A stretch of DNA of 64,000 nt from the NCBI RefSeq assembly GCF_036373705.1, contig NC_089853.1, positions 1,962,001 through 2,026,000 of the forward strand. The letters are read 5' to 3'. The notes below the pieces were generated by a model that saw only the letters and a program-made list of their open reading frames with translations, ran no database searches and was not told the DNA's origin. Of this stretch, positions 9,601 through 53,900 are shown in pieces (position 1 is the first letter of the stretch; each line of letters opens with the position of its first letter). Source of the DNA: Amia ocellicauda. Taxonomy: Eukaryota > Chordata > Actinopteri > Amiiformes > Amiidae. The translations under genes and the position numbers were made by a program.

Positions 9601-10796
9601 TATACACTCACCTAAAGGATTATTAGGAACACCTGTTCAATTTCTCATTAATGCAATTATCTAACCAACCAATCACATGGCAGTTGCTTCAATGCATTTA
9701 GGGGTGTGGTCCTGGTCAAGACAATCTCCTGAACTCCAAACTGAATGTCTGAATGGGAAAGAAAGGTGATTTAAGCAATTTTGAGCGTGGCATGGTTGTT
9801 GGTGCCAGACGGGCCGGTCTGAGTATTTCACAATCTGCTCAGTTACTGGGATTTTCACGCACAACCATTTCTAGGGTTTACAAAGAATGGTGTGAAAAGG
9901 GAAAAACATCCAGTATGCGGCAGTCCTGTGGGCGAAAATGCCTTGTTGATGCTAGAGGTCAGAGGAGAATGGGCCGACTGATTCAAGCAGATAGAAGAGC
10001 AACTTTGACTGAAATAACCACTCGTTACAACCGAGGTATGCAGCAAAGCATTTGTGAAGCCACAACACGTACAACCTTGAGGCGGATGGGCTACAACAGC
10101 AGAAGACCCCACCGGGTACCACTCATCTCCACTACAAATAGGAAAAAGAGGCTACAATTTGCACAAGCTCACCAAAATTGGACAGTTGAAGACTGGAAAA
10201 ATGTTGCCTGGTCTGATGAGTCTCGATTTCTGTTGAGACATTCAGATGGTAGAGTCAGAATTTGGCGTAAACAGAATGAGAACATGGATCCATCATGCCT
10301 TGTTACCACTGTGCAGGCTGGTGGTGGTGGTGTAATGGTGTGGGGGATGTTTTCTTGGCACACTTTAGGCCTCTTAGTGCCAATTGGGCATCGTTTAAAT
10401 GCCACGGCCTACCTGAGCATTGTTTCTGACCATGTCCATCCCTTTATGACCACCATGTACCCATCCTCTGATGGCTACTTCCAGCAGGATAATGCACCAT
10501 GTCACAAAGGTCGAATCATTTCAAATTGGTTTCTTGAACATGACAATGAGTTCACTGTACTAAACTGGCCCCCACAGTCACCAGATCTCAACCCAATAGA
10601 GCATCTTTGGGATGTGGTGGAACGGGAGCTTCGTGCCCTGGATGTGCATCCCACAAATCTCCATCAACTGCAAGATGCTATCCTATCAATATGGGCCAAC
10701 ATTTCTAAAGAATGCTTTCAGCACCTTGTTGAATCAATGCCACGTAGAATTAAGGTATTAGTATGGTGTTCCTAATAATCCTTTAGGTGAGTGTAT
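9601..10796 (+). mobile_element. Tc1-like transposon, copy A
   Basis: Perfect terminal inverted repeats begin TATACACTCACCTAAAGGAT at 9601 and end in the complement at 10796. It is about 1.2 kb with one transposase gene. It is nearly identical to copies at 14308-15536 and 51984-53213. A deletion of about 33 bp just before the right repeat distinguishes it from the intact copy. The host site lies inside the older hAT remnant. Confidence 0.96.
9753..10775 (+). CDS. Tc1-like transposase, copy A (altered C-terminus)
   Basis: A DDE transposase of 340 residues that cuts and pastes its own element at TA sites. N-terminal helix-turn-helix: [18 protein letters not shown] and [16 protein letters not shown] (about residues 9-48). 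Catalytic domain: WSDESRF, then [10 protein letters not shown], then [12 protein letters not shown], supplying Asp, Asp and Glu (DD34E type). Compared with the 346-aa copy B, a roughly 33-bp deletion replaces the final [12 protein letters not shown] with a short VLVWCS. All catalytic residues remain, so activity cannot be excluded, but loss of the conserved tail makes copy B the better candidate. Confidence 0.93.
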   Translation: MGKKGDLSNFERGMVVGARRAGLSISQSAQLLGFSRTTISRVYKEWCEKGKTSSMRQSCGRKCLVDARGQRRMGRLIQADRRATLTEITTRYNRGMQQSICEATTRTTLRRMGYNSRRPHRVPLISTTNRKKRLQFAQAHQNWTVEDWKNVAWSDESRFLLRHSDGRVRIWRKQNENMDPSCLVTTVQAGGGGVMVWGMFSWHTLGLLVPIGHRLNATAYLSIVSDHVHPFMTTMYPSSDGYFQQDNAPCHKGRIISNWFLEHDNEFTVLNWPPQSPDLNPIEHLWDVVERELRALDVHPTNLHQLQDAILSIWANISKECFQHLVESMPRRIKVLVWCS

Positions 10797-14307: not shown

Positions 14308-15536
14308 TATACACTCACCTAAAGGATTATTAGGAACACCATACTAATACTGTGTTTGACCCCCTTTCGCCTTCAGAACTGCCTTAATTCTACGTGGCAT
14401 TGATTCAACAAGGTGCTGAAAGCATTCTTTAGAAATGTTGGCCCATATTGATAGGATAGCATCTTGCAGTTGATGGAGATTTGTGGGATGCACATCCAGG
14501 GCACGAAGCTCCCGTTCCACCACATCCCAAAGATGCTCTATTGGGTTGAGATCTGGTGACTGTGGGGGCCAGTTTAGTACAGTGAACTCATTGTCATGTT
14601 CAAGAAACCAATTTGAAATGATTTGACCTTTGTGACATGGTGCATTATCCTGCTGGAAGTAGCCATCAGAGGATGGGTACATGGTGGTCATAAAGGGATG
14701 GACATGGTCAGAAACAATGCTCAGGTAGGCCGTGGCATTTAAACGATGCCCAATTGGCACTAAGGGGCCTAAAGTGTGCCAAGAAAACATCCCCCACACC
14801 ATTACACCACCACCACCAGCCTGCACAGTGGTAACAAGGCATGATGGATCCATGTTCTCATTCTGTTTACGCCAAATTCTGACTCTACCATCTGAATGTC
14901 TCAACAGAAATCGAGACTCATCAGACCAGGCAACATTTTTCCAGTCTTCAACTGTCCAATTTTGGTGAGCTTGTGCAAATTGTAGCCTCTTTTTCCTATT
15001 TGTAGTGGAGATGAGTGGTACCCGGTGGGGTCTTCTGCTGTTGTAGCCCATCCGCCTCAAGGTTGTACGTGTTGTGGCTTCACAGATGCTTTGCTGCATA
15101 CCTCGGTTGTAACGAGTGGTTATTTCAGTCAAAGTTGCTCTTCTATCAGCTTGAATCAGTCGGCCCATTCTCCTCTGACCTCTAGCATCAACAAGGCATT
15201 TTCGCCCACAGGACTGCCGCATACTGGATGTTTTTCCCTTTTCACACCATTCTTTGTAAACCCTAGAAATGGTTGTGCGTGAAAATCCCAGTAACTGAGC
15301 AGATTGTGAAATACTCAGACCGGCCCGTCTGGCACCAACAACCATGCCACGCTCAAAATTGCTTAAATCACCTTTCTTTCCCATTCAGACATTCAGTTTG
15401 GAGTTCAGGAGATTGTCTTGACCAGGACCACACCCCTAAATGCATTGAAGCAACTGCCATGTGATTGGTTGGTTAGATAATTGCATTAATGAGAAATTGA
15501 ACAGGTGTTCCTAATAATCCTTTAGGTGAGTGTATA
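14308..15536 (-). mobile_element. Tc1-like transposon, copy B (intact)
   Basis: The same family as copy A, in the opposite orientation. Full inverted repeats TATACACTCACCTAAAGGAT at both ends, about 1.23 kb. The encoded transposase is uninterrupted, which with the near identity of the three copies suggests recent spread. Confidence 0.97.
14344..15384 (-). CDS. Tc1-like transposase, intact copy B
   Basis: A 346-residue DDE transposase read on the minus strand from ATG at 15384 to the stop at 14344. Paired helix-turn-helix DNA-binding regions occupy about residues 1-110 ([13 protein letters not shown] start; [16 protein letters not shown]). The catalytic domain has WSDESRF (Asp), [21 protein letters not shown] (Asp) and [12 protein letters not shown] (Glu, 34 residues after the second Asp in this family). 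The C-terminus KAKGGQTQY is complete. Length equals that expected for Tc1 transposases. No stops or frameshifts; this is the best candidate in the window for an active enzyme, which is an inference from integrity alone. Confidence 0.95.
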   Translation of the reverse strand: MGKKGDLSNFERGMVVGARRAGLSISQSAQLLGFSRTTISRVYKEWCEKGKTSSMRQSCGRKCLVDARGQRRMGRLIQADRRATLTEITTRYNRGMQQSICEATTRTTLRRMGYNSRRPHRVPLISTTNRKKRLQFAQAHQNWTVEDWKNVAWSDESRFLLRHSDGRVRIWRKQNENMDPSCLVTTVQAGGGGVMVWGMFSWHTLGPLVPIGHRLNATAYLSIVSDHVHPFMTTMYPSSDGYFQQDNAPCHKGQIISNWFLEHDNEFTVLNWPPQSPDLNPIEHLWDVVERELRALDVHPTNLHQLQDAILSIWANISKECFQHLVESMPRRIKAVLKAKGGQTQY

Positions 15537-23600: not shown

Positions 23601-26600
23601 ATTGAAATAAAATAGCTGCCTTATTACATGCGAAAAGCTGGATAACAAAAGTAAATACATTGTTCCTGTAAATTCTGTAAAGATGATTGCAACATTCAAT
23701 TCAAACCATTGCAGTCACTAAATATAATATTCTTAAAATGCATTTCTCGTGTGTAGTTAAATCAGTTTTCTGAACCTCATCCAAAGCTTTTTTTACTTTT
23801 AGATCCTGATATTTTACTAGTCAGCATGACAGTGCGTTAAATGCAATAACCACTTATAAACAATGTAAAGTTCACAAGCCTTTTGAAGGAGAGATGGTTT
23901 TACTGCTTTATATAGCACCACCCTCTTGAAATGTCAGGATCTGTGCTGCGTTTGTTGGAAAATATCAAGTTAAAATGTCATCAGTTAACTACAGTTATGT
24001 AATGTCTTTGGAAGATGTTTTTTATTTTATTAATCATTTTACATACAAGAAAGTTGAGTTAAAAAGCTTGTGCTATTTTTTTTTTTCTTCAATTTAGGCA
24101 CTTGCTACACTCACTCAGTAACTCTAGAGCAGGTGTCTCCAACCCTGTTCCTGGAGAGCCTCTATCCTAGCCCCTGGAAGGATTTCATTTTGATCAAGTT
24201 AAGCAGTTTTTTTTTAGTAAATTCAGTCGTTTATAAACCATTGGAGCAATTGTCTGAATACATTCAGCCTATGAATGCAAGAGCTTTCTTGGTTGACTTG
24301 CTTCATTGGTTAATAACTCGCTTGTGTTCCTTGTCTTTAGAAATTGCTGATTTAGGGTGACCTATAAAACAAAGTGATAGAGGATCTCCAGAGCTAGAGT
24401 TGGGGACCACTGCTCTAGACGGTACTAGACAAGCTGAATTTCCAGGACATTCCCTCTGTAAGACTTTGTCTTTTGCATGCTGCAAGTTTGTTTTGTATTG
24501 CATGAATTTATTAAAAATAAAATGTATTTACACTGACTGTTATCTGTGTTTTCCCACTCCATCTAAACTGGGATTATCAGCAAGTCAGAGATGAACTTCA
24601 AGTAATCAGTAGCTGGCCTGCCTGCTTAGTGGTAATATTATAATATACTACCATAGTTGTTCATGTTTTATTTGTATATAGCTCTAATTCGGAAAGTGCT
24701 TTACAGGTACAGTAGGCAGGAGGGAGTTCATTCATAGTCTACTTACTTTATGCAGTTATTCTGGCTGGGAAAAGGATAATTCGAGTGGGAATAAAAACAG
24801 AATTACATGATGATTTATTTAATTTGCATACCATTTCGATGCAGTCAGTGCTTGAGGCTTTTATACACCGATCAGCCATAACATTATGACCACTGACAGG
24901 TGAAGTGAATAACACTGATAATCTTATCATGGCACCTGTCAGTGGGTGGGATATATTAGGCAGCAAGTGAGCATTTTGTCCTCAAAGTTGATGTGTTAGA
25001 AGCAGGAAAAATGGGCAGCGTAAGGATCTGAGCGACTTTGACAAGGGCCAAATTGTGATGGCTAGACGACTGGGTCAGAGCATCTCCAAAACTGCAGCTC
25101 TTGTGTGGTGTTCCCGGTCTGCAGTGGTCAGTACCTATCAAAAGTGGTCCAAGGAAGGAAAAGCGGTGAACCGGTGACAGGGTCATGGGCGGCCAAGGCT
25201 CATTGATGCACGTGGGGAGCGAAGGCTGGACCGTGTGGTCCGATCCAACAGACGAGCTACTGTAGCTCAAATTGCTGAAAAAGTGAATGCTGGTTCTGAT
25301 AGAAAGGTGTCAGAACACACAGTGCATCGCAATTTGTTGCGTATGGGGCTGCGTAGCCGCAGACCAGTCGGGGTGCCCATGCTGACCCCTGTCCACTGCC
25401 GAAAGCGCCTACAATGGGCACAGCTAACGTCTTGGTGACAGATACCACAGCACACCTTCAGAGGTCTAGTGGAGTCCATGCCTTGACGGGTCAGGGCTGT
25501 TTTGGCAGCAAAAGGGGGACCTACACAATATTAGGCAGGTGGTCATAATGTTATGGCTGATCGGTGTATATTGTCTATTCTGAAGTGAACAGTGAATTAT
25601 GTTACTCGTGTTATTTTGTTGTTTCTGTCTCTCCCCCCTTCAGGAGTAATACAGGCTCTCAAGGAACAGGATGGTGTCAATTCCTAAATACTATGAGGGG
25701 AAGAACGTTCTCATCACAGGAGCCACTGGCTTCATGGGCAAAGTCCTGCTGGAGAAGCTGCTGCGATCCTGTCCGGCTGTCAGCACAGTGTACGTGCTGG
25801 TCCGGCAGAAAGCGGGCCAGGCTCCTGCAGCCCGCATCGCCGAGATGGTCAACTGCAAGGTAGGCAGGAGTAGAAGAAAAATTGAGTGTTTACAGTAGGT
25901 TAACACAAATTACATTTTCTTTTTCTTGGCTATATGGGTATTTCAGTGCTGCTTGCAGCTGTTCTGGATTGCTGTGTTTGCACAAATCACAAAACACCTG
26001 ACTGTATTTTCTGTGGGAATAAAGCAATATCTCATTGATCTGTTCCACTGTTAGGTGCCTTGCTTTAATTAAATGTCGAATGTGCGCCAGTTGTACTGTG
26101 GGCATTTTACTGCAATTGTTAAATATACCAAGTTACACAGTTGAAGTATCTTCTATAATTATACCTTTTCATATATCTGTTGTGTCTCAGCTGTTCGACC
26201 GGTTGAGGGATGAGCAGCCAAACTTCCCAGAGAAAATTGTTGCAGTGAGTAGTGATCTGACGCAGCCTGAACTTGACCTGAGCAAAGAAGACCAAGAGAA
26301 GCTCGCCGACTGCATTAACATAGTCTTCCACTGTGCTGCAACTGTCCGATTCAATGAGCCGCTGAAGTGAGTAATTGTAATCACTTTCTGCTATGGTACC
26401 ATTTTACACAGCATGACAAGACAATGCTACAAGATAGCCTGCAGCAGAGGTTCCCACCCATTTCACTACATTATAACCATTTCGCCTTTTTTTGCAGAGC
26501 ACAGTTGTATTCTACTAAAAGCTGCTTCCTTTTATGCGTCTTGTCTCTGATTCCCTTGTTTAAAATCCAAAATAAGTTTTTTTTTTTTTTTTTTAATTGC

Positions 26601-29600
26601 CCAACAAAGGTTCTAGGGGATTTATTCATGTACTTACATTTTTCACACCCACCACCTAACTTGATTAACCTAATTTGATGCATCTAAAGGAGTAATTCTG
26701 AAGCATATGGATTGCTCTTTTTTTCTTCGTACTCCAATATTCATTTGATTTACATTTCCTTTTGTAGAGATGCGGTGCAGCTGAATGTCCTGGCTACCCA
26801 ACAACTCATTGCCCTGGCTCACAGAATGAAAAACCTTGAGGTTCTCATCCATGTGTCAACGGCTTATGCAAACTGCAACCGAAAGCTGATTGAGGAAGTA
26901 GTCTACCCTCCTCCAGTAGATTATAAGAAGCTAATCGACTCTTTGGAGTAAGTTGAAATGTTTTCCCTGCCTTGTTCATTGAAGAGATTTTACATAAACA
27001 CATTTTCTATTTCTCCCCCCCCCTAACCCTAACCCTAACCCCCCCCCCCTATAAAATTGTTCTTCACTCAATATGCAGCATGTGAAGCTTTGTTTTAAAA
27101 GCAGTCCGTCACTGTTGTATCTTCAGTTGTGATCTGTTGTTTATACATTTCCTTTGCCAAAACGGTTTCTGAAGGGGACGTGTCAGAGCTGGGAATGGAG
27201 GAAGTATTTTAAAGTGTTTTACATCTCCTTTTCATATCAAGTATGTTGATTTAAGTGCACTGGCCTTTCTGTGTTTGCTGATGCTCTAAAGTTGCAGTTC
27301 AAAGATTTAACCACTTCAATTTATTTATTTTATTATATGATTGCTGTTCTATATTTTTTTAGTTTTGTGGTTAAAACCAATTACACAGATGCAGACCATA
27401 TATGTTCATTTTGTTTGCTTTTCTTTTGCTTGTTTCTTTTGCTCTTATGGAATGACGTGACATTCATCAGTAAGTTGATGTATCCTTGCTTTACTGTCAA
27501 GTAGATCTACTAGATTTTTAGGCTATTGTAGCTAAATCTTGTTTCTTGTTTTGGTCCCAGCACACAGAGATCTACTGAAAATAAGTATAAGTATTAAAGA
27601 ACCTAGATCTACTTTATTGTTTACAGTTGGTTTTGCATTCACAAAGATTGAATCGGGTACTTAATACTTCATAAAAAAATAAATACACAATACCAATGTA
27701 ATTTTAATGTAACAATCATTGAATTGATAAGCTTAAAGCTTGTTTTGATTGTTTTTGGCCACACTCACCTCTGTTTCATGAGGGACTACATATTGTCTTC
27801 AGTAGAATCCCTTTTAGATGCACAGTAGCACTTTAAACTTAATTTAGCAACACTATTAATTATAGACATTGCAGCTAACCAAGACATTTGAATTTGTTAC
27901 TGTCCTGTTTTACCTTTTCAAACTCTTACATTACTCTGAAGTCTATTAAAAGTCTTTCCATTATCGTTATAACAAATCAATATTCAAGCCACTTCAGAAA
28001 ATAATCAAAACTGCTTACATGATTGAAAGAGATGGTTTTACATGGTAGAAATCCATCAGCGGTAAACAATCTTGGTTGAGCGCCAGTGCTTCCCCCCCCC
28101 CCAGTCCCCCCCCTGACCAATCTTCTTTCTCTGTCTTGCTAAATTTGCAAAGGATTGCAGCTGTGGTTTTAAAGAATGAAATGTGAAATTCTTTAAAGGT
28201 TCTTAATTTTATTGGCTTACATATTTCCCAGATTTAATTCCATTTAAAAAAAAAAAAAATGTAGCCATGTAATATTAATCTCCGTAATAATTCAATACTT
28301 CTTGTTTTCAGGTGGATGGATGATAAACTAATTAACGAAATTACACCAAAACTTATTGGCGAAAGGCCTAACACTTACACCTATACAAAAGCTCTGGCAG
28401 AATATGTTGTTCAGCAGGAATGTGGGAACCTGAATGTGGCAATCATTAGACCCTCTATTGTGGGGGCGAGCTGGAAGGAGCCATTTCCGGTACGTATACT
28501 GAAGAAAATTGGGGGGGGGAAAGCACAATTTACATTTAATAAACCAAATGAACAGGTTCTTACTATAACTCTTAACACAATCTATGTAAAATACAACTTG
28601 CTGTCGTAGGCAATTTAGCTGGAGGAAACAAAATTTGAAAGTGTTGACACATCAACTGTGTGTCAGCATCAGGAAAAGGAAATGTACAATTATAGTGCAG
28701 TGATAAAACCCCACGATGTAGGCTTACTTACAGACCAATTTAACTCTTATTTTTGCCCTCGGTGTTTATTTACCCCAGTCCAGCCTTCTCTGGGATACAA
28801 GGGAAGCCATCCATTGCCCGAAATGGATGGCAATCTGACATTTGTCTACCAAGAAGGACTGCATTAGAGCACTAAAGAAACGCAACATTTTAAATGTTGC
28901 ATCTATTCTTTAATCCATATTGATTGTCCCAGACAATGTACATGAAACATGCTTGAATAAGATTTTATTTTAGGCAATGGGATTACTGGGAAATCCCCAC
29001 TGACTCTAAACTTGAAAAGATGGAAAGTTCCTTCGTTGTGCATGATGCACAATGTGAGAAGTTGACGCAGGATTTTGCATATCTTGTTTGGTATTTGTGT
29101 TTCTGTATAGCACCCTTTAATGACTGCATGTTATTACAGGCATGCCATGTTGGAGATCTGAGAAACTTTTTTTTTTTTTCCTCTCTATTATAGGGTTGGA
29201 TTGATAATTTCAATGGACCTAGTGGAATATTCATTGCTGTGAGTATGTTGTTTGGCTCTCGTATGGTCTTCTTCCCCCTCTTTGTCTTAGAGGTTTCAGT
29301 TAAGAGAACTTTAGTTAAATCATTCTTTGGAAGTTTTTCAGCAGTTTGAATGGGTCTTAATTCTTTTCATTCAAGAATGCCAACAATGTCCTTGAAATGG
29401 CTGATTTTGCAGTACTGTGTTGCTTGTAGGCTGGTAAAGGAATCCTTCGTACGATGAGGGCCTCTAACAATGCAGTGGCAGACCTGGTCCCAGTGGACGT
29501 GGTCATCAATACCACACTGGCTGCGGCCTGGTACTCTGGAGTTCACAGATACACCAGGTGATTATTAAACCTTTATTCTTAACTGTTTGAGCCTAAAACA

Positions 29601-32600
29601 TCTAACACCCCAAAACTAAAGAGGGCTCAAGAGCTTATAAAATATACTACCCTTAACTTAATTCATATGAGTCACAAACTAAATGAACATTATCTTGTAT
29701 ACAGCATATTAATAATGGACTATAGTGATATTTTAATATTTGTTAAGTTTAAATAAATGTTTAAATGTGAAATGACAGTGCTGTATATACTTTGCTTTCC
29801 CATGAAGCAAATATTTAATTTACAAAAAATTGAATGCCTTCCTGTCCACCGAGAAGATGTTTCCGTAATATTGCACAATGCTAGTATAATGGTAAATGCA
29901 AGGCCTTGCTGTAATGTGCAATTTTGCTTGTCTTTGTAGACCCAGAAGTGTGCTTGTGTACAACTGCACTACAGGAGGCGTTAACCCTTTTCACTGGGGT
30001 GAAGTCGGTATGGAAACATTTTCATCTACAATTTTGAAAGAAAAGAATATAAACTAGATTAATGAGTAACTAACAAAGTTATCCAATACAACAAAGGAAA
30101 ACAATTAAATTGTCATGGCCATTGCATTGGATGTAAACTTCCATATGGTTATGGATCACTTTTAATGAGTGTGAATCTGTAATTATGAATCCTTAATTTA
30201 AAAAACAAAAAACAAATAGAGATGTAGTTTCCAGCTCACACCAACACCCAGTTTCAAATTTGTCCCACAAGAGAGTGAAGGACAGTGCAGGCCTGTGAGA
30301 GCCATGTCTCGGCCATCTGCTCCTTTCACCTGGTCTGCATAAATTGCTTACACAGTGAGAGGAAACTGCTGAGTTACATTTCCAGATGGCTTTCTGTGTG
30401 TTCTTAGTCAGGTATGCTATAGCAATCAAATAAATAAACTATTCTTTTAATTTCCCTGCTTTACACTTGAGTTTCTTGTGGAGACCTGTGAATGGGATTT
30501 TATCTTGAGGTTTCACTCAAGACTCATCGGCATCGTAGCACCAAGTGCAGAATGTTCCAGGAGGTCCCACTTTTTGTAGTTGGTGTATACAATTGCTCTC
30601 CCATTTAAGGGCTGTAAAGCTTTTGGCTGAGACTCTTTTGCAGTACAAATAGGTCAATTCCTTTTAGAAACCTAAAAGCTTCTAATTATTTATTTTCCCA
30701 GAGGCTTTGAACAATCGCATCGTTAGTTCAAATGAAAGGTCCTATTCAAATAAGTGAGTTATTATTTGTACCTAGTCGGATCTTGTTCTTGGTGTTCCCT
30801 GAATGACCCTTAAAAAATACTTGTTAAAGAATGCTACGTAATGTTTAATGTTGTTGCTCTACAGAGCTTTTTTCTCACTCAAACTATTCCTAGCAGTGAG
30901 GGTGTGAAGTCCATTGTATGTTAGAGATTCAAACCTCTGCATTTACTTGAATATTATTGCCCTGCTTTAAACAATGACTCAACGTGTTTTATGCTTAACA
31001 ATATGAAGTGCAATCTTTTTTTTTTTTTTTTTCTCCAAACTTGAGGCTAGAGATACTTTGAAAACTTTATACTATTGCAACATTTTTCTCTCTTAGAGTA
31101 CCATGTTATATCCACTTTCAAGAGGAATCCTCTCGAGCAGGCCTTCAGACGGCCCAATGTTAATCTCACATCCAATCACCTTATCTATCAGTACTGGATT
31201 GCTGTAAGCCATAAGGCACCAGCATTCCTATATGATCTCTACCTCAGGATAACAGGAAGAACACCAAGGTAAATGTGACTTGCTTAGCCCACTGTTGTAT
31301 TATCCTTTCAGCCCATTTGCCCTTCCAGTGCAGTCCAATGTTGTTGTATTCATGTGTCTGATGATGCATAGGGGTAAGGATGTATAACCACAAGGATGAA
31401 CAATGTCTCTGAATTGGGCAGATAACACTGCCAAAAGAGACCAAATCCTCTTTTGAAGGATCAGCTTCCTACAGGTGGTGTGACAATCCACTTGCCATGG
31501 TTCTGCATTCTTACCTGTATGGCCTGTTTTTTTTTTTGTTTTTTTTTAAATCTGTTCATGTTTAAAGCTCTGATATATTTTTTCTGCAGAGTATTATGTA
31601 AATGTGTCCTTCAAGATGAACCCCTTAGAACAGGCTTTCAGGCGCCCCAATGTTAACCTCCGGTCCAACCCCTTTACGAATCAGTACTGGACCACAGTCA
31701 GTCACACAGTGCCTGCACTACTCTATGACGGGTATCTAAGGTTGACAGGTCAGAAACCCCGGTAAGGTGAACAGTGCTGCAGTCCACCCTGGTGCTGGTT
31801 TTGTAGTGGTGGAGGAGGCAAGCAAAGATTGCTTGACTTCATGGCATTGGACTTGGCATCATGCTGTTAACACTGCTGTGAAATGACGCATGGGAATGGT
31901 TTCGCTTCCTAAGAGAGAGCATGTCGAATATGGCTTTGTCGTCCGATAATTAAACTAATGCATTGTGGGAATAGAACTGGACAAAGAACCATAATCTCCC
32001 ACGAAGTAACTAAAACCATGCAGTTGAATTGTTTTGCATTGAGTGTGATCAGATTGAACTTTGGTGATGCAAATTAATGCCATTTCATTCCCCGTGTTGG
32101 TTCTGTTGGGTCAAAGTAACACAGAAGCCATTCCTTAAGTAAGCCATGCCATCAAGTCTTCAGGCGTGACCTCAAAACTATCTGCTACAGTGCCATTCTC
32201 CTCCTCTTTCAATCTGGCACTGTTCTGAGGGACTTGCATATTCTTCAGTAGGGTTTGACTGATACAGGATACCAAGCATTTGATAATATTGGCTGGTTTC
32301 CCGATTTTTATTGGCCTTCTATATTTTTTTGGACCAATACCAGAGACTTTGTTTGTACAGAGGACACCATCTTGGTTTAGCTACCTTTTCAATTAATGTT
32401 CACCGACTACGCCTAAGATTATTAAGAAAGGAAAAATCGATTGGCCACAGAAGAGATTCCTACTTCTTGGTTTTAATACATTTTTATGTACAGGAAAGCA
32501 TTTGACTTTGACTAATATATGTAAAATCTATGTCTTGCTTATTATTTGTCGGGTTCAAGTGTATTGCTTTTTTGAGTTATTCATGAAACCCATGCAAAAT

Positions 32601-35600
32601 TGCGCACTAAGAATGAAAAGCTTTTAATAGTATCTGAAAAAAGAAACCAGTTTATAGTGAAGTCTTAGCTATCGAATATCTAGGAAAAAATTGTTTTCTT
32701 TGGAATTACAGTAGTACTGTTAACATTAATTGTATTATAATTATAGAACTGCTATAGAAAGACGTTAAATTAATTTGTCTCTGAATCTGACTTGAACAAA
32801 GGAAATTCACTTGATGAAATCCATTCTCTGGTTAAGGAATGACGCACTATTTAATAAAATGTGCTGCAGTATATTTGAAGGTGGCAGCACCATATGGGAA
32901 TAACAGTTGTTTATCATGAGTACTTTAAAAACTGATTGCCTGTTTAACTTGTGAAACCCTGCATTTCAGATTTAGGTACTAGAGTTAAGTGAGAAGTGTC
33001 TTGTAGAAAGTGGTATCAGTCCAACCTTATTCTTAAGAAAGCAAATGATTTTCAAGCATGTTGGCAATCTGTTGGCCGCCCTCAATGAAAAGAGCGCTGA
33101 TTGATATGAAAAATCAGTTGTCCATGGCAAGGCAAACCTATATCTCGATCACAATTTGCAGCAATCAACAGCTCCCATTGTCTTTAGTTACATTTTTCTA
33201 ATCACCTCTAGATAGAAACATAGGCCCAAATGTAGTAATTTAAAACCTGACAATGCATTCTAAATTATAATAACTAAGCAGAGCAAACATGAAGGATGAA
33301 TGTTTTCAGGGATGCTGTTTTGTTAACTCATGTCCCCTCGTTTGTATTGCATTGTTTGAATGTGTACATCATTTTCCCCCCCCATCCTCCCTTCATGCTC
33401 TGCCCCCCTCTTGAAATGTAAGGGATTGGTCACCTTTCAAAAGAAATAACACGCATTGAAAAGGGGGGCTTTTGAGTAGAGTTTGCTGATTTGGAAGGAC
33501 TAGAAAAATGTTCACATTGTTTCATTACAATCATTTCACAGATGTTTGCAGTTTAGTATTATTTGTAACTGAGGTCCATGAGAATGGGAGTGTATTTTGG
33601 AGGGGAAGTGAACAAGGAAAGTGTATTTTGCCAATCAAATTAACATGCGTCTTAAATAAATCAGTGGCATTTTAGCATAAAATATGAGTACATTTGAAAT
33701 GGTTCACTTTCTCTCCAACTTTTTACAGGTCTTCCTGTTTCCACTGGACATGGTGTATATGTTTCTTAAGCATAGTGTCACTTTATATGTAGTCTTGGAC
33801 ATGAAAACACAGATGTCAAGTTGGGACAGGAATACCTTGAGCATTGATTTGTATTTGTTTTCTGAAGGCTGTATGTAAAACTGACTAGCTCCAGTAAACC
33901 AGTCCAGCTTTATAATATTTACTAGCATAAAAAGCTCTTTTTAAAAATAAATAAAATAGCTGTGCACCTCCTGTCTGTTTCAATTTTCAAAATACTGGAT
34001 TCACTGTTATTGAATATAGTATTCTCCATGGTGATTTTTTTTGTAGTTGAAGTAAACGCTCTAGTAAACTATCATATTTTTTCCCCCCATTTTTCCTAAA
34101 TAATAGTTTTTTTTGTTTTTTTTTTAATGGTTTGCAATTTACCAGCATTTCAGTTGTTCTGTGTGTGACTATATTTAGTTCTTACATTTTAAAAACTCCC
34201 AATTCTGTATTTCTTAAACATAACAGACATTGATTTGCACACTAATTACATAACTTTGCCATTTTTGCATTTGAGACTTGACAGCTGTGTGCGCAATAGA
34301 TTTCACCTCCTTACCATAGGCAAGTCAACGCTTTGATTCCTGTCATGGCAAGCACATTTTAGGAGCGTCTTAACAGAATCCAGTATGTTTAGAAGATGGT
34401 GCAGAATTGTTTGTAGATTTTATATAGCTATTTAAAAGACATCCACCCTGGATTGGTGAAATGGAGAATTGGGGTGTTCGCTTTGTTACTGTTTATGATG
34501 CATTTTGCTTCTGTGTAACTTGACATGATCTAGAATGATGAAAACGATCACCCGCCTCCACAAAGCCATGATGCTGCTGGAATATTTCACCAGCCACTCC
34601 TGGGTGTGGAACACTGAGAACACCACCATGCTTCTGAACCAGCTGAACACGGAGGACAAGAAGGTACGTAAACTTGTGAACCTTTTTTATGTGTCCCTTC
34701 CTTTCAAATCACAATGCTAGAGAGCTCTAAGTCTGTCTGCATGTAGAACTTTTATACTCAAATACATATGAAGTTACAACAAATGACAGTTGCAAATGTG
34801 AAATGTTGTTGGTCTCTAATGCATAATTAGACGCCTCGCGTGAGTGACCACTTCTTGGACAATCGAGAAATTCACAAATTGCATATAAAGGGGCTTGTTT
34901 TATATGAATGGAATCATTGTGTCTGAAGGCAGCCGAGTCTGTGGACTGTGCAAAATCTGCATTGAACTATGGGTTGCATTTATTTGTATAATTAAATGCT
35001 CAGTGTTTGAAAGAAAAACGCTTTTTTTTTTTTTTATACTCGAACAAGTGGTTATTTTGTAATCTGAACGTTACACAAACATTGTGGAATATAGATGTTG
35101 AAGATTTTGAAAATCTGAAATCTTTATTAATTCCAGCTTTGGGGAGGGGAGGTGGGGGTGGAATTAAACAGATACCTTGTCTGAATATATATTCATGTTC
35201 AAACACATTTTTAAACCAGATACTTTTATAAAGCATTATGAGTTGCAGATTGTCCTTATAGAACAAGATTCCACCTGGGAATTCCATGGACGCTGATGTT
35301 TGTGCCTTTGACATTTTTAATTTCCATAACAAATCTTATTTTCTTGTTCAGGTTTTTAACTTCGATGTCAGGCAGTTACACTGGGCTGAGTACATGGAGA
35401 ATTATTGCATGGGAACCAAAAAATATGTGCTGAATGAAGAGCTCTCTGGACTTCCTGCAGCACGGAAACATCTGAACAAGTAAGCGGTCATACACTTTGT
35501 CTGGTTCAACATGATCATATACTTAATGAAAACAAAGCAGGAAAACCTAAAGTGTTGAATATCTTCCACTGGGAAAATTTGGTAAAATAATATATAGTTT

Positions 35601-36084
35601 ACATTTCACAATATAGTGGTTATGGTGTATATCAAGATATTTTAACCCACTGTTATTTTGGAACTGAAGACCAAAATATTAAGTGTGGCGTTGGATGAAA
35701 TGGCACCATTTAATTATACTCAGCCGACTCGGTACGTACTGCTTACCAACAGACTCCTATGTGTGGGATCGGTATTGGATTTGTAATTAATTTGGTCTCT
35801 CTTGCAGCATTGTCAGTGTAGAATCTCAGATCTTTCACAGCAAAATGTGAAAGGTCTGCGTTTGTGTGTTGTATATCTCTAATCAGTCATTTTCTATTTC
35901 CCCCTCCTCTTTATCTTTCAGACTGAGAAACATCCGGTATGCTTTCAATACCATCTTGGTGGTCTTGATTTGGAGGGTGTTTATTGCACGGTCACAGATG
36001 GCGAGAAACATCTGGTATTTCGTGGTCAGTCTGTGCTTCAAGTTTTTGTCCTACTTTCGAGCATCCAGTACCATGAGGTACTAA
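19150..36084 (+). CDS. FAR1: Fatty acyl-CoA reductase 1 (11 coding exons in the main model)
   Basis: FAR1 reduces long-chain acyl-CoA to fatty alcohol with NADPH for ether-lipid (plasmalogen) and wax synthesis, at the peroxisome. Putative non-coding exon 1 ends at 19220. Coding exons: 25671(ATG)-25859 (exon from 25644), 26191-26366, 26768-26947, 28312-28489, 29194-29238, 29430-29557, 29940-30007, 31097-31268 (or alternative 31590-31761), 34534-34663, 35352-35479, 35922-36084 (TAA). Total 1557 nt, 518 aa; human FAR1 is 515. Visible features: TGATGFMGK dinucleotide-binding loop (residues 16-24), HVSTAYAN, catalytic YxxxK as Y204 and K208 in [13 protein letters not shown], and the C-terminal FAR domain with [13 protein letters not shown] hydrophobic tail around residues 466-505 should anchor it in the peroxisomal membrane. 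All junctions are GT-AG and in phase. Relative to human (from memory), three residues (YTR) are added after SGVHR. Confidence 0.96.
20085..24120 (+). other. FAR1 intron 1, first part
   Basis: Non-coding; poly(T) at about 20650-20674. No conserved exon, RNA gene or full transposon recognised. Short ORFs (for example 22094-22474) lack domains. Confidence 0.45.
24122..24420. mobile_element. hAT-type MITE, 283 bp
   Basis: Element 24130-24412 begins CAGGTGTCTCCAACCCTG and ends with the complement (GTTGGGGACCACTG), about 45 bp of imperfect inverted repeat. It is flanked by 8-bp duplications CTCTAGAG (24122-24129) and CTCTAGAC (24413-24420), the target-site length of hAT elements. It has no coding capacity. 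Located in FAR1 intron 1. Confidence 0.88.
24862..25570 (+). mobile_element. Second Tc1-like family, deleted copy 2
   Basis: Inverted repeats TATACACCGATCAGCCATAA and the complement at 25547-25570. Remnant transposase text [20 protein letters not shown] (about 25235-25294) reads on +. The central catalytic part is missing, so the copy is about 0.7 kb. It ends only 73 bp before the first FAR1 coding exon, next to the branch-point region. Confidence 0.92.
27021..27040 (-). repeat. Short interstitial telomere-like repeat
   Basis: Three tandem CCCTAA units within a C-rich run, in the FAR1 intron after the exon ending at 26947. It is too short to be more than a seed or a repair scar. Confidence 0.8.
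31097..31268 (+). CDS. FAR1: FAR1 alternative exon, version a
   Basis: 172-bp exon, acceptor TCTTAG, donor AG/GTAAAT. It encodes residues 322-379 ([20 protein letters not shown]...), matching the exon of the main mammalian FAR1 form. It enters in phase 1 and leaves in phase 2, exactly like its downstream partner. Confidence 0.9.
31590..31761 (+). CDS. FAR1: FAR1 alternative exon, version b (paralogous to a)
   Basis: A second 172-bp exon 321 bp after exon a. Acceptor TTTCTGCAG, donor CG/GTAAGG. It encodes [20 protein letters not shown] then [18 protein letters not shown] and ends LTGQKPR. It has the same length and phases as exon a and clear homology ([30 protein letters not shown]). Including both exons shifts the frame and hits TAA after about 22 codons; skipping both gives GAA TGA at once. 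Only one of the two can be used per mRNA. It might alter the acyl-chain pocket, which is inference. Confidence 0.85.
31769..34530 (+). other. FAR1 large intron
   Basis: About 2.8 kb between alternative exon b and the next constant exon at 34534. No coding exon recognised. Small ORFs (32311-32505, 33684-33878) show no domains. Poly-C and poly-T tracts at about 33375-33383 and 34106-34126. Confidence 0.45.
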
Positions 36085-44910: not shown

Positions 44911-47900
44911 ATGCATTGGGGTGCAGTGAAGGTCTTTTTTGCGCTCCTGTCATTGTGCTTCTGCTCTCAGACTTGCACAGCCTCCCTGCTGAACGAAAAA
45001 GGTAAGATGTTCAGATAGATAAAAACAGGATTATTTTATACAGAATATATCATTGTTATTTTCTACCCTTTATAAAATATCCAGATTTTCTTAATGGAAA
45101 TAAGAATAATACACTATTTGTAATTTTTGTTCTTTACTTGTGTGTTTGTTAGTTTTTTAATTATTATTTTTTGGCAGACTGTAGTTAAAAACACATTGAA
45201 TGTTTCTGTTGTCTATGGCAAGCTGTGACATTTAATCAATAATTGCTGATATCAAAAATTCAATTTCTGATTTCAATAATGCAATTGCTGATATCAAGAA
45301 TGATCTGTTATTTTTGGTATCAACAATTGTATTTTTGATATCAGCAATTGTATTTTGGATATCGGAAATTGAATTCTTCATATAAAAAATGCATACTAAT
45401 TAACATCCGCTTAAGGATTAAATGTCACAATGGTGTACCATGAATTGCTGGTATCAGCAATTGTATGTTTGATATCAGCAATTATGCATTAAATGTCACA
45501 ACGGCTTGCCATACTTGTCATTTGTACCAGTCCTGCTTGTGCTTTGTTTCTTATATCTCCAGGGTCTAAATGTGGGAAAGTACTTGTGCAAAGCCCTTTG
45601 GATCAGTCGTTGAGAATCGTGGGTGGGAATAAGGCTGTGTATGGTTCACACCCATGGCTGGTATGGTAACAGCAGCCTGTATCTATCCATCTCTCCATTA
45701 TTTATCTCAAACTTTATTAAAAATAAAAGGGAAAAAGTTACTGTTACCGGCAGGCTTACTTAAACCTACTAATCTGTTTTTACACTTTCAAAGGCACTCA
45801 TACCTGCGCTGTCTCTCAGTTACTTAACAATATAGGAACAACCAATTAATAATAAATAATACATTTGAAAAATACTTTAAACATGTTTCTATAATCTGTA
45901 AAGAAATTACAGGCAAATTTAATATTTTTTGTGTGGCAAAATTCTGTAAACCCCTTTAATCTCGGAGGATGTGTTAGTAAGACCTCTTGGCTTGCTAGAC
46001 ACTTAGGTCTAACTATCACATCCTCTTCAAAACCAGGCTGTTTATCTATCCATCTATCCAACCATCCATCCATTGCTCAATCTTGAACTAGCTGTATAGA
46101 TGTTTTAGCAAACAAAATAGCGTGTATTTGTGTATGTATGTGTATTTCAGCCTTCATATTGCACTATGTCTGTTTAAATGTGTTTGAAGGCATGTTAACC
46201 TACATTTTCTGATGTTTCTTAGGTTTCTCTGAAGTTTAAGGGGGAACACTTTTGTGGAGCATCAATCCTCAATGACAAATGGTTGCTGTGTGCTGCCCAT
46301 TGCTTTTCTTCATTAGCAAAGTAGGTAAACATCTTCTGGAAGTGGAAGTAATGTTGACCATTAACTCACATTGACTCACATAATATTGTTTCCTTTGCAG
46401 TCATCCATTCATTTTATTACTGACATTTTTATCTTATAATCTCAATTTCTTCCAGACAGTCTTTAACATATGTATTAATTGTTGTCGGTGAATATGACCA
46501 GAGAACTTTAGATGCCGGAGAACAGAGACTAAAAGTGAAAAATGTAAAAATCCACAAAGATTTCATGACATCCAATGCTGTGATCAATGATATCGCAGTC
46601 GTGGAAGTAGACGGACGGATTACATTTGGTAAGCCCCATTTTCTCAAATAAACTTAATGTTAAGTGTCTCAAACCAACAGATGTGGGACATTAATAGCAG
46701 GATTTGGAATTATCACACCACTGTAGTCAACCAGAGTATTGCACATCTATTACAAAACAATATAATTGACTGCTACTCTAGGATTATTTATTTTATTTGT
46801 ATAGGACTTTTTATTTTATTTTATCAATCAATGTTAATCCTTTATCATCGAATTGTAACCTTTAAGTCCTCCTTTCCCAATGTTAGGGAACTTTTACATT
46901 TTCAGTAATATTTAGCTAATGGTAAAAAAACACAGAAACAAGCAAACCTGCAAACATCAGAAAGAAGTTCAAGACGCACACCAAGGAGCTTGCTCATTAG
47001 CTATTTTGATTTCCCTTTTCTGAAGGTAATTACACCCAACCGATATGTCTGCCTCTTCCTAGTGAGGAGTTCAAACCTGGAACCAGTTGCGTTGTGAGTG
47101 GATGGGGTCGTTTGAAAGAACGTAAGGACTTTTACTGCACAGAATCTGGAACCCAATGGTTTTCTTTCCACCCCAGATCATAATGGCTTAATTTCACTAA
47201 TTGTTTAGATAATAAGTCAAATCATGTGTCAGATCCATGTATCAATCAGTTGCTAATTGAAAGCTACGTCAAAAAACATCAAGTACTGGAGCTGCCCATC
47301 CCTGTTTTAGAGTGTAGTAGTCATACATGTTGATATGTCTGAACCTGGTCCCCCTATAATGTTTGACAGAACTGAGTAAGGGGAGCAGACGAGTTCTAGA
47401 ATAAATTCTTAATGAAGATATGAAGCATTTTTCTAATTGAATTGCGGGTTCCAGCTAGTGAAAGATGTTCAAACCAGTTGGCAAAATTGTTGTTTTAATG
47501 CTCGTTGATACTATAAAACGGAACTCTTTCATTTATTATAGGGTTTACCACAGTGCAGTTATTGCTCTCTTTTTGACTGCAACTTAACTTCTGACATCAG
47601 AGAGACTTTTGTCCTTAGGTCCTTTTAAGTGTAAAAGGTTTTACCTCTCTTGTATTAGAGGTATTATCAACATTCAGGCTTTAAGGGATAATTTAAAGTA
47701 TCCTATAGAAATATATATTTCACAAATAAGGACTACATACAAATGTGATAGAAATTTCAAATCCTATTTTAATATTATTTTCCATTCAGGTGGACCACTA
47801 CCTGACATTGTCCAAGAGGTGCAGCTAAACCTCATTGATCCAAGAACGTGCAGTAATGTCATATCAACTGTAAGGCCCAACAAGAAACTTTTCTCTGTCT

Positions 47901-50900
47901 TATGCGCCGGCCCAGAGACAGGAGAGAAAGATGCGTGTCAGGTAAGGAGAATATTATCTGGTTGGGCTGTGAGCAGAGTGCTATGTATTTTTGGGTGGGT
48001 GGAGATGAGTCTCTATTGTCTCTGCTACAGGGCGATTCTGGAGGTCCCATGGTCTGCCCCAGAAAGAATGGACAGTGGACCCTTGTTGGCGTGACGTCAT
48101 GGGGTAAAGGCTGTGGCCGTAGCTGGATTGATAATGCTAGTAAACAGATGTCTAATAGGGGGTCTCCCGGGGTCTTCACCGATGTAAAACAGTTCCTTCC
48201 GTGGATACTGGGAAACATGTATACAGGTAATAAAAAAAAACATGATTTCACAGTGAATTAAGCAATACTGAGTACTGAGCTTGTACTGTATTGCAGAGGT
48301 TTAATTTGTTGTTTGTTTTTCAGACACACAACCAAACAAAAAATCTGCATCAAGTAAGTTCACATTTAAAATGGAAGTACACAGCATAAGTATTACATCA
48401 TCTGCCAGCAACATCCAAGAAGGAAATACGAGAATTGGGTCAAATTAAAATTTACATTTTAAGTTGAATGCTTGTCAACCTGGATTCATGTAATGCCTTT
48501 TCACTGTGTCAATATTTTGACAAAAGATCATCAAAATAAAACGAACCCATTCCTGAATTTTCTTTATAACCTAAAGATGATTATTTATTTTTTGGGGGGG
48601 GAAATAATAATTTAGTAATTGGAGTCTGACTTGTTAAAAATGTCTCTACTTTCTCTACCATTCTTAAGAGCTATGCAGCACGGCAGATGGTACAATAACA
48701 GGTACAGAAGGCCTGATACGAAATCCAGAAAAGCCCTACAATAACTACGAGAACAATGAGTAAGTAATGCACATGATGATGCATTTGTTTCTGAGAAATA
48801 TATCTTCAAATATTCTGTTATTGTTGCTGCAGTCGTTAGATTTACTCACCACTGCTCTATTCCAGACTGTGTTTCTGGTCTATAAGAGTCCCAGCTGGGA
48901 AAAACATTCTGCTGGAGTTTTTGGAGTTTGATTTGGAAAATGATACTTATTGCAGCAGTGACCAGCTCTCTGTATTTGCAGGAACAGAGAATCTAGTGGG
49001 TGAGTGTGGTGAAACAGGAGCCTTCACAGCAATGCTCTTCTCTCTCTTTTCTGACGTGATAGCACTGCAAACCTGTCTTACTGTTGCAGGTCAATTCTGT
49101 GGCAGTGTACTACCATCTCCAATCCTAATCAGCTCAAGCAGCGCCACCATCAAGTTCACATCTGATTTCAACGGCTCGGGGGCTGGATTTTCAGTGACAT
49201 ACAAGGCCATTGACCCAGATTCGCTTCTAGGTGAGATTTCACGATTCAACGCTATTACATTTTTTTATTTTGTGTATGATTTCCAGTTCTAATACCTTTA
49301 CTATAAGCATAACAACAAAGTAAAATATGCAGATTTCGCATCATAGACCACATACTTACACAAATCGTACATCATACAGAAACCATCGTATGATTATTTA
49401 TTGGCCTAAATGTATTGGCCTGTGCCCTCCCCCTACCTCACAAATACCCCTTTTTCAATACCTTTGGAAGACAAGAAGAGAATAATAGAGCATATTTTTT
49501 GTTTCTGTTATATTTTTCTTAAGAAAGTATAATTCCATTTCCCCGTTTTTTAGTATATTTGTTTCCTAAACTTAATATTATTTACATTGACAATGTCGAC
49601 TAAATTGGCATTTGCATTAAATATAAAAGTAGGTAGTCATGACACTTTTCATGATACGGGTTAGGCTATGTTTATCGATTTCTAAAATTATAAGGAGAAC
49701 TTCCTTTTCCCCACACAGTCCATATGCCTTTTGCTGAGGATTTGTTAATCTGAATTAACCACTGAAGTCCTGTCAGATACAGTGATCGACTCCAAGAAAG
49801 GCAGCTAAGCTGACACGAAGTGGAGTCCTCATGTTTACAGTCAGGCAAAGGCAAGCGGGACCCTGGAGTATGATTTCACAATGGCACTATGGTTACCCAT
49901 CCCAAAAGAGTCAATACAGCTGCTTATCAACACGAATAGCAGATGTAGAGGCTTAAAACAAGAGCAACCAGAAAAAATTAACTTAGTTTTATCCTGGGTC
50001 TGGATGCTAGTTCAGTATTCCAAGACTCGTATTACAATTTTATTTAATTGCACAAATTCTGTATTTTAACAGCTGTAATTCTACCTACATAATAATAACA
50101 TGTATCCACCAGTCTAAGAAATGCTCTATGGCTTTCTGCCTTTCCATTATAATATACTTATATCGAAGACACCTGTTGCTGGAAAATTGCCTTTGATTTT
50201 TTAAACACCCTGGTTTATGGCCCGTTGATATAGAATCTCAGGTCTCTCTGTAATAACTGTCCTTTGTATAATTGTAGCCTCCGGCTGTGGGGCGGTGGCA
50301 GTGCTCCAAGCCGAGGGAGTTGTTCAGAGCCTGCGCCATCCAGACCTCTACAGCAACAATGCTGCCTGCCGCTGGATAATCTATGCGCCACAAAACCATG
50401 TTATTAAGGTAACATCAGATTTATTTAGTCAGCTTACTTTTATACTGAAGGCCTGGCCGTGCTCAAAAATAGATTTCCCCAAATACAGTGAATATCTTGA
50501 GAGAACTACATACTGAATATAAGAATATTATGCTAAATTATATCCTTCTGTTTACCAATCTCACTGATCAGTAAGATGTACTAATGATTGATGGATTGAA
50601 GCCATCCTTACTAACTTGGGCAACAGCCGCAGTTACACAACAATTGGAGCAAGTGGGCTTGAACAAATTATCAAGATTTACAGTGCTTATTATGTATTTA
50701 TTGTCAAATTAACAAAATTAAACTAAAACTAAACTGTTCATTTAAGAATCATTCATAGTCAATATAAAACAGAAATGTTCTTTGGATTGCTAGATTGTTC
50801 GTTAGTATGGCAAGCCAAATGATCATTTAAAGATATCTTCAAATATTTAAAGATATCTCTAAATCATTTAAAGATATCTCATTTAAAAGTACATTTAGAG

Positions 50901-53900
50901 ATATCTGCAAATCATTTAGAGATATCTTCAAATGACTTCCTGTATGTAGCCCAAGATTATCACTTCCTGTTAACTTGTTCATTCATTTCTATGTAACTGA
51001 ATAAGGAAACAAGAAGTGATAATCTCAGACAAAATACATGAAGTCATTTGAAGATATCTCTATAAGATTTGCAGATATCTTTAAATGATTTAGAGATATC
51101 TTCAAATCATTTAGAGATATCTTTAAAAAGCACCTTATTTAGATACCTATAAACCATTTGCAGATATCTCTAAATCATTTATAGATATCTTTAAATATTT
51201 GAAGATATCTTTAAAAGCATTTAGAGATATCTCTAAATGATTATTTGGCTTGCCATAAGTTAATCTTGAGAGTTAGTCTTGATGTATGAAATTGTCCAAT
51301 AGTTGCCTGGATATTCTTTGTCACCACAAATTGTGTGTTTTGGATTTGAGTTTCTACTTCTAATCCCGTTTTTCAGATGGAGTTTGAAGATTTTGAGCTG
51401 GAAGAGTCAAGCGATTGTGGGTATGATTCACTCACCGTGTTTGGAGATGTGGAGGAAAGAGAAGAAATAGGTACTTAAAGATAGGGTGCCAACAGCACAG
51501 CATTTTATTTTCAGCATGAGGATAATTGGAATCTAATCAAAGAAAATGTGTCTCCCAAAGCTTTTTTAAGATAATGTGCCAAAACAAAAAAATCCAATAC
51601 ATATTTTCTATTGTCATGAACTTGCTGCTTTTTGTTTGTCTTAATGTTTCAGCATGTATTCAGGGTGTAAACTGGAGTATTGCACTGAATGAAACTGAGA
51701 AAAATGAAGATGTTTCCCAATAACTTTCCTCACTTCCCGTTTCAGCAACACTGTGTGGAACAAGCATTCCAGTCCCTGTGCTCAGTTATGACAATGTGAT
51801 GGTTTTGCAGTTCATCTCTGATGGCAGCATTTCATATAAAGGATTTAGTGCTATCATATCCTTCATTCGTAAAGAGGGTGAGTTTAATTGTTGAAACAAT
51901 TTAAAAATTTGGTATAAATGTAAACCTCAGTGTTTTTCAGAACAAAACATGAAAATGTACTTTATGTTCAGAACATGTGATAATATACACTCACCTAAAG
52001 GATTATTAGGAACACCTGTTCAATTTCTCATTAATGCAATTATCTAACCAACCAATCACATGGCAGTTGCTTCAATGCATTTAGGGGTGTGGTCCTGGTC
52101 AAGACACTCTCCTGAACTCCAAACTGAATGTCTGAATGGGAAAGAAAGGTGATTTAAGCAATTTTGAGCGTGGCATGGTTGTTGGTGCCAGACGGGCCGG
52201 TCTGAGTATTTCACAATCTGCTCAGTTACTGGGATTCTCACGCACAACCATTTCTAGGGTTTACAAAGAATGGTGTGAAAAGGGAAAAACATCCAGTATG
52301 CGGCAGTCCTGTGGGGGCGAAAATGCCTTGTTGATGCTAGAGGTCAGAGGAGAATGGGCCGACTGATTCAAGCTGATAGAAGAGCAACTTTGACTGAAAT
52401 AACCACTCGTTACAACCGAGGTATGCAGCAAAGCATTTGTGAAGCCACAACACGTACAACCTTGAGGCGGATGGGCTACAACAGCAGAAGACCCCACCGG
52501 GTACCACTCATGTCCACTACAAATAGGAAAAAGAGGCTACAATTTGCACAAGTTCACCAAAATTGGACAGTTGAAGACTGGAAAAATGTTGCCTGGTCTG
52601 ATGAGTCTCGATTTCTGTTGAGACATTCAGATGGTAGTCAGAATTTGGCATAAACAGAATGAGAACATGGATCCATCATGCCTTGTTACCACTGTGCAGG
52701 CTGGTGGTGGTGGTGTAATGGTGTGGGGGATGTTTTCTTGGCACACTTTAGGCCCCTTAGTGCCAATTGGGCATCGTTTAAATGCCACGGCCTACCTGAG
52801 CATTGTTTCTGACCATGTCCATCCCTTTATGACCACCATGTACCCATCCTCTGATGGCTACTTCCAGCAGGATAATGCACCATGTCACAAAGGTCGAATC
52901 ATTTCAAATTGGTTTCTTGAACATGACAATGAGTTCACTGTACTAAACTGGCCCCCACAGTCACCAGATCTCAACCCAATAGAGCATCTTTGGGATGTGG
53001 TGGAACGGGAGCTTCGTGCCCTGGATGTGCATCCCACAAATCTCCACCAACTGCAAGATTCCAAACCTATCAATATGGGCCAACATTTCTAAAGAATGCT
53101 TTCAGCACCTTGTTGAATCAATGCCACGTAGAATTAAGGCAGTTCTGAAGGCGAAAGGGGGTCAAACACAGTATTAGTATGGTGTTCCTAATAATCCTTT
53201 AGGTGAGTGTATATAAAAGCCTGGATTAATTTTAGTAATGTCTAGTTTCCTTTGATTGATTAATTTGCATTTTGTCTTGTATAGGAAAGTTTATATTATT
53301 GTAAATTAAAACAGACATATGGATAAACAGTCTAAACATACAGTATAAATAAATAGCATTACACAACTTTTAATGAATTAATGTATTTAGTACAATATTA
53401 TGATATCGACAAATGATATACCTTTTTACATTGATGGAAAAGCTATTTCAGGTGAGACTGACCAGATTACACACTTCAATCCACAGATTTGCATGCTGGA
53501 GGCCCTGATGAATCTAAAGAACACTCCTCGAAGGATTTCGACATGTCAGCCCCAGAGAACCCCTTAGGTTTGTTCAGTTAGGTTGGGAGTGTTTGTGCAC
53601 AGGAGGATCTGCGAAGTTGGGGTGATGTCAGTTGCACGTCTTTGTGAACCCTGTAGAATAATACATATTTTTCTAATACGTTTTGTGTAACCTTTCTTCT
53701 GTAGCACTACTTTGGCATTGATGTTTTATAAAAGCTACACGTGAACGTTTCCATTTCTGAGGAGATTGATATTCAGGGCAAAGCAGAGGTTCAGATGCCT
53801 CCAGACTGAGAGAGGGAGCGTGCTCAGACTTGCTCCAGCACTAACGCGCAGGTCCTCCTCAGATGCCTGTGGAATGCCTCCTGTCGCTGCCAGGTTCGTG

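Follow-up and report, generated by a model that had tools for sequence, protein, structure and literature searches.

Two homologous FAR1 exons in Amia ocellicauda, a probable fish counterpart of the mutually exclusive human exons 9a and 9b

Why does a single fatty acyl-CoA reductase gene hold two versions of the same exon side by side, and does the choice between them alter what the enzyme does? We addressed these questions in a 64,000-nucleotide stretch of the Amia ocellicauda genome (contig NC_089853.1; hereafter the window, meaning the whole stretch that was analysed). FAR1, encoding alcohol-forming fatty acyl-CoA reductase 1, occupies positions 25671–36084 of its forward strand, where twelve coding exons could be placed, including the pair that we call exon a (the canonical exon) and exon b (the alternative). 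Plasmalogens depend on FAR1 for their fatty alcohol, and neurological disease follows when the enzyme is lost or misregulated (PMC9471318, PMC5740500). Our analysis indicates that the pair is very probably the fish version of the exons 9a and 9b already known from human FAR1, an ancient duplication whose two products probably carry out the same reaction and more likely differ in their regulation.

Table 1. Placement of the FAR1 coding exons and of the intron between the paired exons, in window coordinates.
Feature	Position	Strand	Basis
FAR1 coding exons upstream of the pair	25671-25859, 26191-26366, 26768-26947, 28312-28489	+	spliced translation
FAR1 coding exons upstream of the pair, continued	29194-29238, 29430-29557, 29940-30007	+	spliced translation
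Exon a, 172 bp, canonical FAR1 exon	31097-31268	+	spliced translation; grouping with A exons of other FAR1 in the exon tree
Intron between a and b, 321 nt	31269-31589	+	
Exon b, 172 bp, alternative exon	31590-31761	+	spliced translation; 58/58 match to the Lepisosteus oculatus FAR1 isoform X2 model
FAR1 downstream coding exons, with terminal TAA	34534-34663, 35352-35479, 35922-36084	+	spliced translation

The predicted protein has the domain plan of a fatty acyl-CoA reductase. Pfam matches were obtained to NAD_binding_4 (PF07993; residues 15–284, 2.5e-85 in both isoforms) and to Sterile (PF03015; residues 360–451, 5.8e-35 for isoform b and 1.5e-33 for isoform a). The TGxxGxxG and YxxxK motifs are present as TGATGFMG at residue 16 and YTYTK at residue 204, and hydrophobicity over 19 residues peaks in a stretch that begins at residue 469. 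FAR2 shares this domain plan and has a homologous exon at the same place. A tree of 42 chosen proteins, from which exon 9 had been removed, split at 100/100 into a FAR1 clade of 30 rows (29 with exon b and one with exon a) and a clade of 12 rows without b. All three rows named FAR2 fall in the latter, together with several that are named FAR1 at source, for which we followed the tree placement; only a-like exons were seen in this clade, and every one of the 29 b carriers lies in the FAR1 clade. The window sequence is not itself a row, and we assign it to FAR1 because its isoform b is identical at 497 of 518 residues to the spotted gar (Lepisosteus oculatus) FAR1 isoform X2 (P0010), which is a member of the FAR1 clade. 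The domains, the motifs, the gar match and the tree bear out the gene identity given in an earlier note made from the window sequence.

We then considered how the two exons fit the reading frame. Both are 172 bp long (1 mod 3), begin and end in the same phases and are bounded by GT–AG sites, with acceptors ...ctctcttag/AG (a) and ...ttctgcag/AG (b) and donors AAG/gtaaat (a) and CCG/gtaagg (b), the slash marking the exon boundary. In the spliced translation, the seven exons 5′ of the pair sum to 964 nt, that is, residues 1–321 plus one base, and either exon alone, joined to the ten other coding exons, gives an uninterrupted protein of 518 aa in which residues 322–379 are swapped. Because the length is 1 mod 3 and the phases are equal, exactly one copy is usable; including both or neither shifts the frame and leads to an early stop. 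On translation, double inclusion reaches its first stop at codon 401, the 22nd codon after residue 379, and double skipping reads GAA TGA and so ends at codon 323. From these stops it is a further 363 and 253 nt, respectively, to the last coding-exon junction. Stops well upstream of the last exon junction generally expose a transcript to nonsense-mediated decay (NMD), which is the fate to be expected for the products of double inclusion and double skipping alike. The earlier description of two homologous 172-bp exons with matching phases and good splice sites, 321 bp apart, was right to the base, and its claim that exactly one must be chosen agrees with these translations. It had also assigned the swapped residues 322–379 to the FAR C-terminal domain. 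The residue numbers stand; the domain assignment holds for the last 20 residues, which lie in the Sterile match, and fails for the first 38, which sit between the two Pfam matches. Judging from the gene sequence and from related species, A. ocellicauda itself presumably makes use of exon b.

Several devices that could enforce the choice of one exon were evaluated. The 321-nt intron speaks against a steric block (< 50 nt), since the a donor is separated by 287 and 302 nt from the two branch-point-like motifs closest to the b acceptor. RNA structure was likewise rejected as the switch, as this intron folds no better than its shuffled versions (z 0.08; 50 of 100 shuffles were as good). The surrounding introns hold ten inverted-repeat pairs, five of them A-rich/T-rich runs and the other five inside the intron after b. 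For two of the A-rich/T-rich pairs, whose arms are near 30200 and 31530, pairing would place exon a in a loop; this is probably chance low-complexity pairing. Scored with consensus frequencies, the donor that immediately precedes the pair (29940-30015, TCG/gtatgg) is the lowest of the gene's eleven coding-exon donors, at 4.5 bits. Given the 321-nt spacer, the ordinary fold of the intron and the weakest donor lying just before the pair, the choice would presumably be made by splicing factors. As a separate observation, a weak donor common to both outcomes could ease regulated choice.

Direct comparison of the two exons points to a long separation. At the protein level 39 of 58 positions are identical, at the nucleotide level 113 of 172, and the base differences fall 13, 12 and 34 at codon positions 1, 2 and 3, so that third positions account for 34 of 59. 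Among the 39 codons for residues common to both, 22 differ synonymously, and the NG86 method gave a dN of 0.21 with dS undefined, as happens with saturation. A tblastn search of the 64-kb window with exon a recovered itself (3e-37) and exon b (2e-23), followed by a match at 0.016 with a stop inside; no third copy of the exon was found within the window by this search. For scale, 200 shuffled peptides compared in six frames reached at most 15 of 58 identities. We regard exon b as no chance open reading frame, because it has a full-length identical match in the spotted gar and relatives across the vertebrates, and the pair as an old coding duplication under constraint.

How widely is exon b distributed, and how old is the pair? 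Three protein searches produced 142, 18 and 15 matches; the listings gave 120, 18 and 15 of these, or 139 proteins after overlap removal; most of the named b records among them are automatic gene models. These 139 listed proteins contain at least 121 b-type segments (92 different), a count that omits two records below the score threshold (P0138 and P0139), as well as 11 a-type segments, two of them chimeric, and 14 FAR2-type segments. The b type was seen in gar, bichir, many teleosts, a catshark, salamanders, frogs and a caecilian, and also in turtles, lizards, marsupials and placentals. Many of the fish b records already bear the name isoform X2 at source. Two full-length b-type proteins, P0089 and P0094 (515 and 518 aa), are encoded on contigs just 1877 and 1999 bases long, which are most likely assembled transcripts because they are too short for a multi-kb gene. 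The absence of birds among the matches listed is uninformative, since the database was clustered at 90% and the a and b isoforms are ~96% alike. Recognisable a and b segments are both present in 9 of the 139 models (P0001–P0009), which shows orthologous pairs in other species; we rejected these as cases of double inclusion, as their joins are altered and they look like prediction artefacts.

We further built a tree of 49 exon segments, from which identical segments, the chimeric a segments of P0006 and P0107, and all b records other than those with 29 selected ids had been dropped. All 30 b segments, including that of the catshark, fell on one side of a branch supported at 100/99, with the a and FAR2-type segments opposite. 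This tree has no outside root, and the shark is represented in it by its b exon. Since a duplication within the bony fishes would have grouped a with b and left the shark exon outside, the a/b pair is at least as old as the jawed vertebrates, and the tandem duplication of one exon very probably predates the ancestor of their living members. A pair of jawed-vertebrate age would be over 400 million years old.

Exon b has diverged more than its partner. Across seven species, comprising the window and six of P0001–P0009 (P0004, P0006 and P0008 were omitted for damaged joins), exon b was more divergent than exon a in 21 of 21 species pairs, with at least 1.5 times as many changes in every pair; between the window and Apodemus, for instance, 24 of 58 residues differ in b and 5 of 58 in a. 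Such rates, along with the damage seen in two catarrhine records, could be taken as signs that exon b has no function and is decaying as a relic. We consider this extremely unlikely, as b is open, of the right length and in the right phase in most of the gar, teleost, bichir, shark, amphibian, reptile and mammal records examined. Moreover, the window and the spotted gar P0010 share all 58 of its residues (the only 58/58 match among those listed), while 21 of their 460 other residues differ, and koala b retains 39 to 49 of 58 residues in common with the b of 11 other mammals. For the mammals as a group (12 of 15 records, omitting P0128, which has the same segment as P0127, and also P0138 and P0139), b was identical at a mean of 49.6 of 58 residues over 66 pairs, with a range of 39–56. 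In the exon tree, five mammals share a long common b stem of 0.57 changes per column, followed by renewed conservation.

Residues specific to b are also retained. Among the 92 different b segments, N326 occurs in 84, R346 in 75, T361 in 78, L365 in 85 and K377 in 79, while R339, P341 and D368, the last of which we take as the counterpart of human D365, each occur in all 92. The comparison of a with b, both trees and this b-specific conservation bear out the earlier proposal of an old tandem exon duplication retained under constraint; when the protein records were searched for signs that exon b is missing from other vertebrates, or randomly changed in them, nothing emerged that would refute the proposal. 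Separately, the last b residue seen is mostly R in fish but mostly W in tetrapods (63 R and 26 W of 92), a difference that hints at a split-codon change at the exon 9/10 junction (34534) between lineages.

Exon b looks damaged in the two catarrhine monkey records listed. In Macaca nemestrina (P0138) and Rhinopithecus bieti (P0139), exon b is five residues shorter at its end (...LLLDCTHVDR), and W355 and P363, each present in 91 of the 92 other b segments, are replaced; a lemur record (P0129) has a normal b. Both monkey records are automatic models seen at the protein level, and P0139 is altered upstream as well. This pattern suggests that exon b has decayed in catarrhines and that its importance may differ by lineage; the 9b of humans or monkeys may then say little about what the exon does elsewhere.

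The pair has precedents in two published studies. Hatje et al. (2017) reported human FAR1 exons 9a and 9b as mutually exclusive using RNA-Seq; exon 9b was novel at the time and was eightfold lower in the same tissues, and it was proposed to ease the disease mutation D365G, which lies in 9a (PMC5740500). The human and window pairs agree in gene, in exon number 9 and in having two exclusive copies. They differ in that the human pair has RNA evidence whereas the window pair is known from sequence alone, human 9b being likened to exon b by its published description; exon a is taken as the counterpart of 9a. Together with the mammalian b records, the human pair substantiates what the earlier note had only supposed, namely that mammalian FAR1 has a similar alternative form. 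Hellenbrand et al. (2011) cloned a chicken FAR1 splice-variant cDNA whose product was enzymatically active and in which 58 residues (319–376, exon 9) give way to a segment of equal length that derives from the intron (PMC3265415). The available text of that paper describes no mutually exclusive homologous exons. From its length and place, we infer that the replacement segment is exon b; the interval 319–376 corresponds to the position of the exon in a 515-aa turtle model (P0121). The pair is therefore already known, from human and, as a splice variant, from chicken, and the fish case is a further instance. A different Far1 isoform, without the membrane segment, has been described in zebrafish (PMC8919083).

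The chicken enzyme also bears on what the exchange does. The earlier note had suggested that the isoforms might differ in chain-length preference or interaction. In a chain-length switch, exon b would reshape the acyl pocket so that different fatty alcohols are made. Such a switch would be in keeping with the 19 of 58 residues that differ between a and b, the conservation of the b-specific ones, and the difference in chain length between bird FAR1 and FAR2 (PMC3265415). When the alcohols made in yeast were compared, however, the two chicken forms GgFAR1 and GgFAR1db, which differ by the 58-residue segment, gave results that the authors call "very similar", the data for one form being absent from the paper itself (PMC3265415). 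Furthermore, the FAR2-type exons seen, from the family that prefers C18 in birds, are a-like, so the type of exon does not obviously track preference. The suggestion is thereby weakened, and we now judge a chain-length switch to be distinctly unlikely.

Alternatively, exon b might mainly set the amount of enzyme, with exon choice or unproductive splicing tuning the FAR1 level and the two proteins differing little. Both wrong splice products would be NMD targets, the amount of FAR1 is one of the regulated points in plasmalogen synthesis (PMC5341075, PMC9471318), and the low human 9b level noted above is compatible with such a role. A pure dosage role, however, needs no conserved b-specific residues, and we hold it to be a possible but rather unlikely account. 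Our preferred reading remains that of an old exclusive pair whose two products share their chemistry. Because the NADPH-binding, YxxxK and tail parts and Asp 368 are kept unchanged in both isoforms, both probably catalyse the same conversion of acyl-CoA to alcohol. Consistent with the published chicken assay, isoform b is more likely to differ in how it is regulated, how stable or active it is or which partners it has than in chain length, although a difference in regulation or partners is speculative. FAR1 is degraded in response to plasmalogens (PMC5341075), and stability is therefore a sensible first property to compare. An AlphaFold model of the spotted gar isoform X2 proved too poor to place the exon residues relative to the active site (mean pLDDT 59.9, with blocks of 35–42 in the first two thirds of the exon, rising to 63–69 at its end).

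In the literature searched, which includes few subscription journals, we found the pair in the two studies above and none for fish or sharks. By word counts, the available text of a 2022 plasmalogen review and of a 2026 FAR1 paper contains neither "splice" nor "exon", and that of a 2025 mouse Far1 knock-out paper contains neither "splice" nor "isoform". That an alternative exon has been retained all the way from shark to mammals implies that FAR1 has a second form, which has seemingly been little studied. Going further, the a/b pair could rank among the oldest mutually exclusive pairs in vertebrate lipid metabolism, with b differently regulated, for example through feedback degradation or partners, and lost or degraded in Old World primates. 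We offer this as a long shot with only a minor chance of holding in full; if true, the loss in Old World primates would speak against the published proposal that human 9b makes up for mutations in 9a.

Finally, other features accompany FAR1 in the window. Downstream of it, at 47857–55582 (+), lie pieces of a serine protease with CUB domains (Pfam Trypsin and CUB), probably ovochymase-like. Human FAR2 has OVCH1 nearby, which would fit two paralogous FAR–OVCH blocks. Two very similar, uninterrupted Tc1/mariner transposase ORFs are present at 9753–10772 (+) and 14347–15384 (-), encoding 340 and 346 aa, and a Sleeping Beauty-type transposase ORF at 2387–3430 (-); these elements are possibly young.
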